This document shows, one piece after another, positions 27,486 to 32,439 of a stretch of 64,000 nucleotides of DNA (position 1 is its first letter; each line of letters starts with the position of its first letter). The DNA lies in NCBI RefSeq assembly GCF_001646655.1, contig NZ_LPZN01000051.1, positions 21,510-85,509 of the forward strand, written 5' to 3'. A program made the translations under genes and the position numbers. Below the pieces are notes generated by a model. The model did no database searches and was not told the origin of the DNA. It saw only the letters and a program-made list of their open reading frames with translations. Source of the DNA: Rhodococcus gordoniae (GTDB lineage: Bacteria; Actinomycetota; Actinomycetes; Mycobacteriales; Mycobacteriaceae).

Positions 27486-28460
27486 GTGTTCCCGGTTCGC
27501 GCGATGGCCGCCACCCTCCTGGCACTGTCCCTGTGCACCGCCTGCGACCCGCGCCGCACATGCGAACCGATCGCCGCCCCGCTCGACGAGACGAGCACCG
27601 CGTGCCCCCGCTTCGGCATCAGCACCCCGGGTGGCCCGGTGGCCGTCGACGAGTACCGCGCGGTCGCCGAGGCCGTCGGCACGGCGCCGGGCGCGGTGTT
27701 GTGGTTCGTCGACTTCCCTTCCCCTCCCCCCATCGGCGCCCTCGACATCGTGCGGGCCTCGGGCGCGGACCCGATCGTCACGTGGGAACCCTGGATACGC
27801 CGCGACCACGACTACGACCGGACGTCCGTGACGATGAGCGACATCGCCGCCGGCGTCCACGACGACCACCTCTACCGCTGGGCCGACGAGCTCGCCGCCT
27901 GGGGTGGGAAGGTCTATCTGCGATTCGCCCACGAACCGAACGGGGACTGGTACCCCTGGAGCCCTGCGGCAGGGACCCCGCCGGAGACGTATGTCGCCGC
28001 GTGGCGGCATGTGCACGATCTGTTCGCATCGAAGAACGTCGAGAACGTGCGCTGGATCTGGACGGTCAACGTCCCGCACGAGGGCAGCAGTCCCATCGCC
28101 CCCCTGTATCCGGGTGACGAGTACGTCGATGTCGTCGGAGTGGACGGCTACAACTGGGGCACCACCCGGCCGTGGAGTCGGTGGCAGTCCCCCGAGGAAT
28201 TGTTCGGACCGACGTTGGACGAACTCGGCCGGCTCGCTCCGGGGCGTCCCGTCGCTGTCACGGAGGTCGCGAGCGCGGAGGCCGGTGGATCGAAGCCGGA
28301 CTGGATCCGGGATCTGGTGGGTTACTTGGACAGTCACCCGGCGGTCACAACATTCGTGTGGTTCCATCACAACAAAGAAACCGATTGGCGCTTGACCAGC
28401 ACGCCCGAGTCCGCGGGGGCGCTGAGCGACGCTCTGCACAGGAGACACATCGCACGATGA
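27486..28460 (+). CDS. GH26-like glycoside hydrolase lipoprotein
   Basis: 324 residues from GTG 27486. Lipobox LCTAC (about residues 16-20) indicates surface anchoring. The GH26 clan-A barrel is suggested by VYLRFAHEPNGDWYPWS (the acid/base Glu in the HE-x-N-G motif, about residue 149) and RPVAVTEVAS (putative nucleophile Glu, about 261). GH26 enzymes are mostly beta-mannanases; others cut beta-glucans or xylans. The gene overlaps the next by four bases and opens a five-gene operon with a BcsA-like synthase, so it may trim or release the polymer, as BcsZ does for cellulose. Substrate is inferred. Confidence 0.78.
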   Translation: MFPVRAMAATLLALSLCTACDPRRTCEPIAAPLDETSTACPRFGISTPGGPVAVDEYRAVAEAVGTAPGAVLWFVDFPSPPPIGALDIVRASGADPIVTWEPWIRRDHDYDRTSVTMSDIAAGVHDDHLYRWADELAAWGGKVYLRFAHEPNGDWYPWSPAAGTPPETYVAAWRHVHDLFASKNVENVRWIWTVNVPHEGSSPIAPLYPGDEYVDVVGVDGYNWGTTRPWSRWQSPEELFGPTLDELGRLAPGRPVAVTEVASAEAGGSKPDWIRDLVGYLDSHPAVTTFVWFHHNKETDWRLTSTPESAGALSDALHRRHIAR

Positions 28461-29698
28461 CAGCCGAGGCGTCGCTCCTCCCCGAACATCTCGAGAACGA
28501 ACGCATGCGTGACGTGGAGCTGCTCGAACTGCTCGACACCCCCCACGAAGAACGGTTCGACAAGATCACCCGCATCGCGTGCCGCGTGTTCGGTGTCCCG
28601 ATGGCTTCGCTCTCGCTGATGGATCGCGATCGGCAGTGGTTCAAATCGATCCTCGGACTGGAGCTCTCCGACGTACCGCGCGAGAGGACGGTGTGCCGCA
28701 CCACGATCGCCCGGGCCTACGCGCAACCCGAGGATCCCGTACTCGTCCTCCCGGATGCCGCCTCCGATCCCGCTTTCGCGGACATCCCCGGTATCGGCGG
28801 AAAGGGGGGCATCCGGTTCTATGCGGGCTATCCCCTGTACGGACCCAACGGTCACCCCGTGGGCACCTTCTGCATCTACGACACCGAGGAGCGGAACCTC
28901 GACGCGGATCAACTCGACACCTTCGCCGAGCTGGCCGAGTGGGCCCAACGTGAACTCGATCGCGCCGACGAACTCGACCGCGCCGCCGAGATCCAGAACC
29001 AGCTCCTCCCCCGGCCGCTCCCGGACCTTCCCGGTTACGAGATGGCCACGATCTGCCTGCCCGCCTTCATGGTGGGCGGTGACTTCTACGACCACTACCG
29101 GCTCCGCGACGGGATCGTGATCACCGTCGCCGACGTCATGGGCAAGGGCCTGGGCGCCGCCATCCTGTCGTCGGCCGTGCGCTCCTCGATGCGGGGGGTC
29201 GCGCGGGTGCTCGAGCGTTTCGGGACTCGTCCGGTCGGCGTCCTCGACACCGGGATGACTCTGACCGTCGGCGCCGAACACCTCGCCGACGACTTCGAGC
29301 ACACCGGGACGTTCGTCACCTCCTTCCTCGCCGCGCTCGAGTTCTCCACGGGAGACATCGATTATGCCGATGCCGGGCACGGGCTGGCCGCGATCCGCCG
29401 CGCCGACGGTACGGTCGAGCCACTGACGAGCGGTGGTGGTCCTCCGCTGGGGATCTTTTCCGCGACCACCTGGAGGTCCGAGGCCGCGCGGCTCGATGCG
29501 GGCGACATGCTCGTGATCTGCTCCGACGGCCTGCTCGACCTGCTCGACGAACAGAGCGACCCGGCGGCTCTGTGCCGTTTCGTCGCAGACCGGGCCGACC
29601 CGGAAGAACTGGTGGCCGCCGCGCGTGCGCTGGCCGAGAGCAATCCGCCGCTCGACGACGTCACGGTGGTCGCGCTACGCCGGGAGACGGCGTCGTGA
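28457..29698 (+). CDS. GAF-PP2C (SpoIIE/RsbU-type) serine phosphatase
   Basis: 413 residues from ATG 28457, overlapping the preceding stop by four bases. A GAF domain spans about 25-165 (FDKITRIACRVFGVPMASLS to YGPNGHPVGTFCIYD). A short helix with IQNQLLPRPLPDLPGYEM links to the PP2C-type domain with VGGDFYDHY, VADVMGKGLGAAIL and ICSDGLLDLLD, which contain the metal-binding aspartates. RsbU-like enzymes dephosphorylate STAS proteins in partner-switch systems. A STAS gene and an RsbW-like kinase gene lie two and three genes downstream. The GAF ligand is unknown; no membrane segment. Confidence 0.9.
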   Translation: MTAEASLLPEHLENERMRDVELLELLDTPHEERFDKITRIACRVFGVPMASLSLMDRDRQWFKSILGLELSDVPRERTVCRTTIARAYAQPEDPVLVLPDAASDPAFADIPGIGGKGGIRFYAGYPLYGPNGHPVGTFCIYDTEERNLDADQLDTFAELAEWAQRELDRADELDRAAEIQNQLLPRPLPDLPGYEMATICLPAFMVGGDFYDHYRLRDGIVITVADVMGKGLGAAILSSAVRSSMRGVARVLERFGTRPVGVLDTGMTLTVGAEHLADDFEHTGTFVTSFLAALEFSTGDIDYADAGHGLAAIRRADGTVEPLTSGGGPPLGIFSATTWRSEAARLDAGDMLVICSDGLLDLLDEQSDPAALCRFVADRADPEELVAAARALAESNPPLDDVTVVALRRETAS

Positions 29699-31650
29699 AG
29701 GCCGTCACGAAGGAGGGCTACCCGTCCCCCTTCCTGCGCGTCCTCATCGTCCTCACGGTCATCGTCGGGTTGAACTACATCGTCTGGCGCTGGCTGTTCT
29801 CCGTGAACTGGGATGCGTGGTGGATCGCGGTCCCGCTCGTTCTCGCCGAGACGTACAGCCTGATCGATTCGCTGCTGTTCGCGTTGACGATGTGGCGGTT
29901 GAGGAGACGTCCCGAGCCGCCCATCGCACCCGCCGGCATGACGGTCGACGTCTTCATCACCACCTACAACGAACCGGTCGATCTGGTGTTGCGCACGGCA
30001 GCAGCCGCGCAGCGCATCCGCTATCCGCACCGCACGTGGATCCTCGACGACGGAGCCCGGCCCGAACTCGCCGCGGCCGCAGCCGAACTCGGCGTCGACT
30101 ACATGACGCGGTCGGCGAGCTGGACGAACAAGCCCCGTCACGCCAAGGCCGGCAATCTCATCAACGCCCTGCTGCACTCCGACGGCGAGTTCCTTCTCAT
30201 CCTCGACGCCGACCAGATTCCCGAACCCGAGATCCTCGACCGCACACTCGGATACTTCACCGACGACAGCATGGCACTGGTCCAGACGCCGCAGTACTTC
30301 ACCAATGTGCCCGACTCCGATCCGCTCGGCAGTCAGGCGCCGTTGTTCTACGGGCCGATCCAGCAGGGCAAGGACGGCTGGAACGCGGCCTTCTTCTGCG
30401 GGTCCAATGCGATCCTGCGACGTGAAGCACTCATGCAGCTCGGCATCGCCGGCTATGTCCAAGCCGTCGAGGACGGTGTGGAACGCACCCTGCGCACCGC
30501 GGGAAGGGTGGTCGACCGGGCACGCCGGAAAGTGCCCGCCGACCAGCCGGACGTGGCCGCGGCACTCGACTCGGTGCGCCGTGCCGTGCGCACGGCACGC
30601 GGCGAACTCCGGACCGGCGCGGCACTCGCCGACGTCACCTTCCGTTTCCAGCAGACGGTCGACGCCGCCGCGCGCAGCATCGTCGACGCCGACTTCGGCA
30701 GCATCCGGGCCGATCTCGAGGAGATCGCAGCGCTCGACGCGCACGGCACCGATGCGCTCACGATCGACGACACCGTCCTCGAACGCCTCGCCGACCGCGA
30801 GTGGTCACCGCTCGGCGCGCTCGAATCGATCCGCGCGATGATCCGCGCCGTCGATGTCGACCGTGCAGAGGAGGCCGAGCCGATGCTCGCGTTGGCCACG
30901 ATCTCCGTGACCGAGGACATGGCCACCTCGATGCGCCTGCACGGCGCCGGCTGGAAGTCCGTCTACCACCACGAGATCCTCGCCTACGGGCTCGCCCCGG
31001 AGGATCCGAAGACGATGGTCACCCAGCGACTCCGGTGGGCACAGGGCACGATCCAGGTGATGCTGCGGGAGAACCCGCTCGTTCAGAAGGGCATGACCGT
31101 ACCCCAGCGCCTGATGTACTGGTCGACGATGTGGAGTTATCTTTCCGGCTTCGCAGCGCTCGCCTATTTCGCGGCGCCGGTGATCTATCTCGTCTTCGGG
31201 ATCCTGCCGGTCGAGGCGTTCAGTCTCGACTTCTTCTCGCGACTGGTCCCGTTCCTCATCCTGAGTCAGTTGCTGTTCTTCATCGTGGGCCGCGGGACTC
31301 CGACCTGGCGGGGCCAGCAGTACAGCCTCGCGCTCTTCCCGGTGTGGATCAGGGCGTGCTGGACGGCCTTCCTCAACGTGTACTTCGACAAGCCGCTGGA
31401 CTTCGCGGTCACGCCGAAGACACGCCAAGGGGGCGAAGGTGTCCCGTGGTATCTGTTCCGGCAGCAGCTGCTCGTCATGGCGCTGCTGGTGGTGGCGGCG
31501 GTCATCGGCACCGTGCGGCTGTTCCTCGGCGACATCTCGGTGCTGGGAGTCACCGCGAACCTCGTCTGGGTCGTGTTCGACCTGTTCATTCTCTCGGTGG
31601 TGATCCAGGCAGCTCGCTACCGTGGACCCGAAAGCGAAGGAGATCGATGA
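29695..31650 (+). CDS. BcsA-like membrane polysaccharide synthase (GT2) with internal insertion
   Basis: 651 residues from GTG 29695. Two N-terminal TM helices (about 14-62) precede the processive GT2 domain: FITTYNEPVD, WILDDGARPE, LILDADQIPE (DxD), FFCGSNAILRRE, SVTEDMATSMRLHGAGW (TED, about 406-408) and TQRLRWAQG (QxxRW); four or five TM helices follow. Such enzymes polymerise beta-linked sugars from UDP- or GDP-sugar and extrude the chain. Unusually, about 145 mostly helical, charged residues (about 256-402) separate the GSNAILRRE segment from TED, where cellulose synthases have only a few residues. There is no recognisable C-terminal PilZ domain. Confidence 0.88.
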   Translation: MKAVTKEGYPSPFLRVLIVLTVIVGLNYIVWRWLFSVNWDAWWIAVPLVLAETYSLIDSLLFALTMWRLRRRPEPPIAPAGMTVDVFITTYNEPVDLVLRTAAAAQRIRYPHRTWILDDGARPELAAAAAELGVDYMTRSASWTNKPRHAKAGNLINALLHSDGEFLLILDADQIPEPEILDRTLGYFTDDSMALVQTPQYFTNVPDSDPLGSQAPLFYGPIQQGKDGWNAAFFCGSNAILRREALMQLGIAGYVQAVEDGVERTLRTAGRVVDRARRKVPADQPDVAAALDSVRRAVRTARGELRTGAALADVTFRFQQTVDAAARSIVDADFGSIRADLEEIAALDAHGTDALTIDDTVLERLADREWSPLGALESIRAMIRAVDVDRAEEAEPMLALATISVTEDMATSMRLHGAGWKSVYHHEILAYGLAPEDPKTMVTQRLRWAQGTIQVMLRENPLVQKGMTVPQRLMYWSTMWSYLSGFAALAYFAAPVIYLVFGILPVEAFSLDFFSRLVPFLILSQLLFFIVGRGTPTWRGQQYSLALFPVWIRACWTAFLNVYFDKPLDFAVTPKTRQGGEGVPWYLFRQQLLVMALLVVAAVIGTVRLFLGDISVLGVTANLVWVVFDLFILSVVIQAARYRGPESEGDR

Positions 31651-31982
31651 GCCACTACGAAACCCGCCAGGTGGGAACGAGCACGGTCGTGCAACCCACC
31701 GGTCGCCTGAACATGGTTGCGGCACCGCGCCTGCGCGAGCAGTTGCGCGATCTCGTCGAGAACGGATCCCACCGGCTCGTGGTCGACCTGAGCACAACCG
31801 ATTTCATCGACTCCTCCGGGCTCGGCGCACTCGTCTCCGGGTTGAAGGCGGCCCGTCAGGCCGGCGGCGACCTGCGGATCGCCGCACCGACCGCCCAGGT
31901 ACAGAGCGTGCTCGCGCTCACCCGGCTCGACCGGGTGCTGACGACACACGATTCCGCGGATGTGGCCTTCGATGGCGACTGA
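31647..31982 (+). CDS. STAS-domain anti-sigma-factor antagonist-like protein
   Basis: 111 residues, a single STAS domain. The phosphoacceptor serine lies in FIDSSGLGALVSGLKAARQ (about 55-60), as in SpoIIAA and RsbV. ATG 31647 overlaps the synthase stop by four bases after an AAGGAG site. In the usual scheme it is phosphorylated by the RsbW-like kinase encoded next and dephosphorylated by the PP2C protein encoded upstream. Placement inside a polysaccharide operon, without a sigma factor gene, suggests it reports on or controls synthesis. That role is inferred. Confidence 0.9.
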   Translation: MSHYETRQVGTSTVVQPTGRLNMVAAPRLREQLRDLVENGSHRLVVDLSTTDFIDSSGLGALVSGLKAARQAGGDLRIAAPTAQVQSVLALTRLDRVLTTHDSADVAFDGD

Positions 31983-32439
31983 CCGGTCACCCGAAGCGCA
32001 ACCGGCCGAGGGCCCTTCGGGGCGGTGGGAGCTGTCCGCCACGACGAGTGAAGGCACCCTCGACCGGATCATGGATCTGGTCGCCGAGATGTTCGCCGCC
32101 GAGGAGCTCGACGATTCGGATCGCATGCAGTTCGAGATCGCGGTCGCCGAGATCGGCGCGAACATCATCGAGCATGCCGGCCGGGGAGACGCGGTCTCGG
32201 TGGCGCTGACCCTGGAACTCCATCCGGATCGTCTCGAGGCCGTGTTCGTCGACGACGGCGCCCCGGCCCGGGTGGATCTGCGTTCGGTCGAGCTCCCCGA
32301 CGCACTCGCCGAACGCGGCCGAGGGCTCGCCATCGCCCTCGCCGCGCTCGACGAACTCCGGTACCGCCGTCAGGCGGGCATCAATCGCTGGACACTCGTC
32401 TGTTATCGATCCGAGGGGTCAGGGCAAGCCGACCAGTAG
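31972..32439 (+). CDS. RsbW-like ATP-binding anti-sigma factor/serine kinase
   Basis: 155 residues from ATG 31972, overlapping the STAS gene by 11 bases. The GHKL fold is shown by the N box FEIAVAEIGANIIEHA (about 49-64), VFVDDGAPAR (G1 box) and ERGRGLAIALAALDEL (G2 box). RsbW/SpoIIAB-like proteins phosphorylate STAS partners or sequester a target such as a sigma factor. It is the last gene of the five-gene operon, and its 3' end overlaps the convergent hydroxylase gene by 21 bases. Target unknown. Confidence 0.88.
   Translation: MATDRSPEAQPAEGPSGRWELSATTSEGTLDRIMDLVAEMFAAEELDDSDRMQFEIAVAEIGANIIEHAGRGDAVSVALTLELHPDRLEAVFVDDGAPARVDLRSVELPDALAERGRGLAIALAALDELRYRRQAGINRWTLVCYRSEGSGQADQ

Follow-up and report, generated by a model that had tools for sequence, protein, structure and literature searches.

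Which process does a partner switch control when its genes surround a polysaccharide synthase gene and no sigma factor gene lies among them? The question is raised by five genes of Rhodococcus gordoniae, at positions 27486-32439 of the stretch of 64,000 nucleotides (nt) that we analysed, hereafter the window (contig NZ_LPZN01000051.1, positions 21,510 to 85,509 of the forward strand). Partner switches are textbook regulators of sigma factors, and a few of them act on diguanylate cyclases. In this case we hold it reasonably probable, judging from sequence comparisons, that four of the genes form a module of a synthase and its partner switch, accompanied by a GH26 hydrolase gene, and that the activity of the BcsA-like synthase is set directly by whether a STAS protein is phosphorylated. 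The protein families are those of the known partner switches and the target would probably be of a new class; we found no published description of the five-gene set in the open-licence PubMed Central (PMC) literature.

The operon and its recurrence

The features considered, all on the + strand, are the following.

27486..28460, +, GH26-family hydrolase with an N-terminal signal segment, possible lipoprotein (start GTG; Pfam Glyco_hydro_26 6.2e-13)
28457..29698, +, GAF-SpoIIE (PP2C/PPM) serine phosphatase (start ATG; Pfam SpoIIE 5e-32, GAF 3e-11)
29695..31650, +, BcsA-like membrane GT2 synthase without PilZ (start GTG; Pfam Cellulose_synt 1.5e-16, Glycos_transf_2 3e-16)
30445..30891, +, helical insertion of about 150 residues just ahead of the TED motif (synthase residues 251-399), delimited by the gap in the BcsA alignment
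31647..31982, +, single-domain STAS protein of anti-sigma-antagonist type (start ATG; Pfam STAS 7e-19; TIGR00377 75.3 bits, cut-off 53.5)
31815..31817, +, predicted phosphorylation site Ser57 in the DSSGLG motif of the STAS protein, by homology to SpoIIAA/RsbV
31972..32439, +, RsbW/SpoIIAB-like serine kinase (start ATG; Pfam HATPase_c_2 5e-15)

A preliminary description of this DNA had reported five genes overlapping by 4-11 bases, and the coordinates, read directly, give successive overlaps of 4, 4, 4 and 11 bases in a same-strand run. The identities it gave to the GAF-PP2C phosphatase, the BcsA-like synthase, the STAS protein and the RsbW-like kinase were all matched by Pfam, and no sigma gene was found among the five operon proteins in the same search, as it had stated, the neighbours having been judged by eye only. 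It had also called the first product a GH26-like lipoprotein: the GH26 part holds, while the lipoprotein assignment is weak because the putative lipobox has its Cys at -3 (LCTAC).

We considered as related loci the best 80 of 417 confirmed synthase matches, ranked by similarity to a query bearing the insertion. The order phosphatase-synthase-STAS-kinase is kept in 72 of these 80 loci, so that the placing of the synthase between the phosphatase and its presumed STAS substrate, already remarked in the preliminary description, is a recurrent one. Two further loci have synthase-STAS-kinase without the phosphatase, and STAS and kinase are thus linked to the synthase in 74/80. A GH26-like gene lies upstream in 31 of the 80 loci, and the complete five-gene order is present in 29. 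Because the four-gene core recurs in 72 loci and the five-gene order in 29, we regard the operon as more than a chance arrangement. A search for the five-gene order across Mycobacteriales had been suggested; the gene order does recur, and the module is not confined to Mycobacteriales, being found also in Arthrobacter, Nocardioides, Clavibacter, Geodermatophilus and Aeromicrobium. One record, labelled Kitasatospora arboriphila (L014), has gene coordinates and a length identical to those of a Williamsia muralis locus (L018), and is possibly contaminated or mislabelled.

We also surveyed 394 genomes drawn from the class, with a synthase threshold of E 1e-60 and up to 12 STAS candidates scored per genome. 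Precisely, we considered as module-type any STAS protein of at least 116 bits, a line drawn at a score gap (next best, 99 bits). The synthase was found in 23 genomes and the module-type STAS in 21, all of them within those 23, and the spacing between the aligned ends of STAS and synthase was at most 161 nt in all 21. None of the 371 genomes without the synthase had a module-type STAS at this score. As regards the two exceptions, the stretch of G425 ends 26 nt past the synthase, and G644 has a synthase fragment only. The STAS subfamily is specific to the module and co-occurs near-obligately with the synthase. The locus of G644 (L205, in a genome of 1.6 Mb) also has a phosphatase fragment left and no STAS or kinase match, and judging from this locus the module may degrade as a whole.

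The synthase and its insertion

The catalytic core of the synthase is of the usual kind: the GT2 motifs DD, DxD, TED and QxxRW and the gating loop FxVTxK are invariant in 20 aligned synthases, and the structure match agrees. Classical BcsA carries a C-terminal PilZ domain that binds cyclic di-GMP (c-di-GMP). The window synthase differs from BcsA in that it has no PilZ, has a helical insertion and stays under the CelA cut-off (339.9 bits against the equivalog cut-off of 699.1). Pfam found no PilZ in the whole window synthase nor in any of the 20 matched stretches of insertion-bearing synthases, and 81 aligned synthases have at most 54 residues past residue 642. A BcsB-like family was not found among the five operon proteins by Pfam, the rest of the genome not having been searched for BcsB.

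The alignment with BcsA covers residues 15-250 and 400-637 of the synthase, with a single BcsA residue between both pieces. The insertion so delimited is kept in 81/81 aligned synthases, with 152-164 residues between window-protein residues 250 and 403. In a predicted model of the whole synthase, built on 88 sequences in replacement of a 20-sequence one with a predicted local distance difference test (pLDDT) value of 66, the insertion is helical, with pLDDT of about 72-89 to residue 330 and 51-75 beyond. Plant CesA has an insertion too, its class-specific region. The structure searches were run on the complete synthase, and the GT core filled their fold lists. Among the matches listed, the named species with the synthases nearest to this one are R. 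phenolicus and R. pyridinivorans (94% identity each), and no synthase-STAS fusion was present among the 120 listed of 4675 homologues. A weak Pfam TraB/PrgY/gumN match was seen in 7 of the 20 aligned synthases (best 6.6e-4).

For comparison we used a phylum sample of 296 genomes, 37 of which had a synthase-related match at E 1e-10. Leaving out G088, G248 and three further hits in G222, G153 and G192, we took 40 stretches, drawn from 34 of the other 36 genomes with a match. One stretch (L112) has insertion and module, and the remaining 39 are insertion-less. In none of these 39 did the module-protein profiles (E 1e-3) find a phosphatase, STAS or kinase adjoining the synthase, L132 and L148 offering little flank. 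We did not count as adjacent a lone STAS 2.5 kb off in L131, where PilZ is present and no module kinase or phosphatase matched, nor a weak kinase match 5.9 kb off in L147. PilZ was found in 13 of the 26 insertion-less relatives scanned out of the set of 39 (E 0.01), and in L116 at 0.016 only. GH26-like genes occur somewhere in 10 of the 39 stretches (E < 1e-40); since they are also near insertion-less synthases, the hydrolase apparently accompanies the polymer and the switch the insertion.

The insertion-bearing synthases are monophyletic in unrooted trees, with support of 0.999 in FastTree (58 rows) and 100 in IQ-TREE (69 rows). In the FastTree tree the clade stands next to relatives that bear PilZ, at low support (0.28-0.38), and IQ-TREE places it elsewhere (ultrafast bootstrap, UFBoot, 37-79), so the direction of an exchange of PilZ for the insertion is unproven. 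We tentatively advance, as a possibility less firm than the control of the synthase by STAS, that the PilZ sensor of a processive synthase was exchanged for a helical receptor domain, inserted beside the catalytic base, where a phospho-STAS switch docks, giving a direct polymer control by serine phosphorylation, without sigma factor or second messenger, that has spread through actinobacteria.

Precedents and proposed mechanism

The closest precedents for such a way of working are SiaABCD and SypA/SypE, which we compare here, with other systems, as described in PMC8457831, PMC10120452 and PMC8256260. In SiaABCD of Pseudomonas aeruginosa unphosphorylated SiaC binds a helical stalk of SiaD and activates it, and a single operon encodes the phosphatase, the kinase, the switch protein and their target (PMC8457831), as the window operon does with their presumed counterparts. 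The Sia target is however the diguanylate cyclase SiaD and its switch protein is a DUF1987 one, whereas here we have a polymerising synthase and a classical Pfam STAS; unlike in SiaABCD, Pfam found no GGDEF domain among the five operon proteins. The NCBIfam SiaA model matches the window phosphatase weakly (4.8e-5, 22 bits, cut-off 700).

SypA of Vibrio fischeri, a STAS protein phosphorylated on a serine, promotes polysaccharide-dependent biofilm, below transcription and with a target given as unknown (PMC10120452); a review words it as acting on transcription, the target being likewise given as unknown (PMC8256260). The Syp system has one bifunctional kinase/phosphatase, SypE, in an 18-gene locus with no known STAS-synthase link, whereas kinase and phosphatase are separate here; the preliminary description had named Syp as a precedent for the principle and not for the gene set. 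In HsbA-HsbD and BgrV-BgrR, STAS proteins also control a diguanylate cyclase (PMC8457831), but these targets make c-di-GMP and not polysaccharide. HmpU/V/W, a partner switch of Nostoc, belongs to a motility/polysaccharide locus, and in Anabaena all4160 a STAS domain is fused to a glycosyltransferase (PMC8256260); both are cyanobacterial and are likened here by description, not by sequence.

The window proteins have the features expected of RsbUVW-type switches, namely the SpoIIE metal Asp residues, the Ser of the STAS DSSG motif and the GHKL N-, G1- and G2-boxes. The metal-site Asp residues 209, 226, 357 and 401 of the phosphatase are kept in 91, 92, 92 and 90 of 94 aligned sequences, the remainder being gaps except one Arg, and the enzyme is likely the activator, answering a GAF ligand. 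Ser57, the predicted phosphorylation site, is present in 98/98 rows of the alignment of module STAS proteins, in which the window protein enters twice, and 9 of the 9 non-module STAS proteins examined have Thr at this position; the STAS protein is likely the phosphorylated effector of the switch. In the kinase, E60 and N64 of the N-box are kept in 96/97 sequences and H68 in 95/97, G116 and G118 are kept in 97/97, and Asp94 of the G1-box is present in the window protein and in 77/97. The loci where this Asp is lost and the N- and G2-boxes are kept are L040, L048, L051, L057, L058, L061-L063, L065, L067-L069, L071, L072, L076, L077, L081, L082, L193 and L195; their kinases may be either pseudo-kinases or enzymes with an altered nucleotide pocket. 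In one mycobacterial metagenome-assembled genome STAS and HATPase are fused in a single frame of 332 residues (L183).

We propose that the RsbW-like kinase would phosphorylate STAS on Ser57, with the synthase off, and that the GAF-SpoIIE phosphatase, upon a GAF signal, would strip the phosphate. By analogy, unphosphorylated STAS would then probably dock on the helical insertion near the TED catalytic motif, with the synthase on, the sign being taken over from the SiaC and SypA systems. Insertion and switch would together replace the c-di-GMP-binding PilZ of classical BcsA. What we infer in this scheme is the phosphorylation itself, the docking, the sign of the control, the nature of the polymer and the GAF ligand. 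If it is true, a BcsA-like enzyme would be gated independently of c-di-GMP. The target of SypA, the polysaccharide-linked STAS, has stayed unknown; in the window the gene of the probable target sits between those of the phosphatase and of the presumed substrate, and the insertion marks a possible binding place, so direct control of the synthase by STAS can be tested with few proteins.

Alternative targets and the surroundings of the operon

In canonical partner-switch logic the kinase is the effector, and with the synthase in the place of the sigma factor the RsbW-like protein would bind and inhibit the synthase until unphosphorylated STAS removes it. The conserved GHKL N- and G2-boxes agree with this, yet we give it a rather small chance. 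Over 53 loci the mean pairwise distance is 0.35 for STAS, 0.53 for the phosphatase and 0.55 for the kinase, and a kinase that is the most divergent part beside a STAS that is the least divergent favours STAS as the protein contacting the conserved synthase; moreover, in the SiaC and SypA precedents it is the switch protein that acts downstream (PMC8457831, PMC10120452). For these two reasons, low divergence and precedent, we chose STAS as the part acting on the synthase.

A small chance, no greater, goes to control of a sigma factor in trans, the kinase being an anti-sigma factor for a remote SigB/F-type factor that drives envelope and polysaccharide genes. All three regulators resemble the families of the RsbU/RsbV/RsbW-SigB system of B. 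subtilis, and a search for SigB/F/G-type factors (cut-off 234 bits) found in the window's own genome a SigF-type factor of 310 bits. Seven of 16 module genomes had a match above the cut-off and eight more had one at 197-230 bits; the Dietzia genome reached 138.8 bits. The own SigF, however, has a separate HATPase gene just upstream, and the STAS subfamily tracks the synthase. A second RsbW-like gene of the same genome (C18) lies near its own STAS and a phosphatase-like sequence. Two further factors of this genome, of 135.5 and 134.3 bits, were read as primary-type and lie at the Dietzia score level, and since the Dietzia match was thus at primary-sigma level only, we extended the search to the genus. 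None of 21 Dietzia genomes had a SigB/F/G-type factor above the cut-off, the best match being 138.8 bits (genome completeness was not given and extracytoplasmic function, ECF, sigma factors were not examined). Yet three of the 21 carry the synthase, the same three carry the STAS, and all three keep the module order unbroken, two of them on a multi-megabase contig. The three best HATPase_c_2 matches of the Dietzia sample are the module kinases, and G309 has an additional short HATPase frame. The window operon differs from the B. subtilis system in having no sigma gene, and its Dietzia counterparts in having no SigB-class match above the cut-off in their genomes.

The reading in the preliminary description is partly supported. 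The aiming of the switch at polysaccharide synthesis and not at a sigma factor gains from the STAS-synthase co-occurrence and from these Dietzia operons without a SigB/F/G match; direct control by STAS phosphorylation, as suggested there, is still what we infer. What had been missed is that the synthase lacks PilZ and bears an insertion linked to the module.

Several observations weigh against direct control by STAS through the insertion, or limit it. With regard to c-di-GMP, 10 of 24 module genomes, the three Dietzia carriers among them, gave no match to a GGDEF protein (E <= 1e-10), but 14 of the 24 have such proteins, the window's own genome included (one protein), and half of the insertion-less relatives scanned are also without detectable PilZ. 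The insertion varies more than the synthase core does (mean distance 0.50 vs 0.26), and its uniform presence is partly due to selection, since the query carried it. As the insertion-bearing synthases form a single clade, the link between insertion, module and missing PilZ may be one inherited event or few, and the congruence of distances among module proteins (r 0.79-0.91) shows co-inheritance only. The G1-box Asp is gone in 20 of the 97 module kinases, in the Arthrobacter group and a few others, and the genome search flagged one TGA within the matching part of two STAS copies (L178, L218).

Six of the 80 loci, moreover, have an insertion-bearing synthase and no module adjoining. In two of them (L063, L081) STAS, kinase and phosphatase lie elsewhere in the same locus, and for the other four (L050, L066, L074, L078) the STAS is located elsewhere in the genome, which speaks for the bond between STAS and synthase. 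Three of these four genomes have a phosphatase-STAS-kinase set of the same subfamily without adjoining synthase (L176, L181, L177; about 1.5 kb of flank searched), their insertion-bearing synthase lying elsewhere, and two contain another synthase that has STAS and kinase beside it (L174, L178). Given such synthase-free sets, STAS may have other targets. These sets, and the single clade of insertion-bearing synthases, would also fit a linkage with no function at all, the switch governing something else, for instance envelope stress, export or the hydrolase. We hold this very improbable given the overlaps of 4-11 bases in the window, the confinement of the STAS subfamily to genomes with the synthase (21 of 23, against 0 of the 371 that lack it), and the linkage of STAS and kinase in 74 of 80 loci.

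As for the surroundings of the operon, a promoter scan found no sigma-70-like site, and there are 4 terminator-like sites versus 1.7 expected, all within genes. From translations read by eye, with no family search, the upstream neighbour is nrd-like, on the minus strand, and the downstream one is xanthine-dehydrogenase-like and convergent. The end of the kinase gene and the end of this convergent gene overlap by 21 bases (32419-32439).

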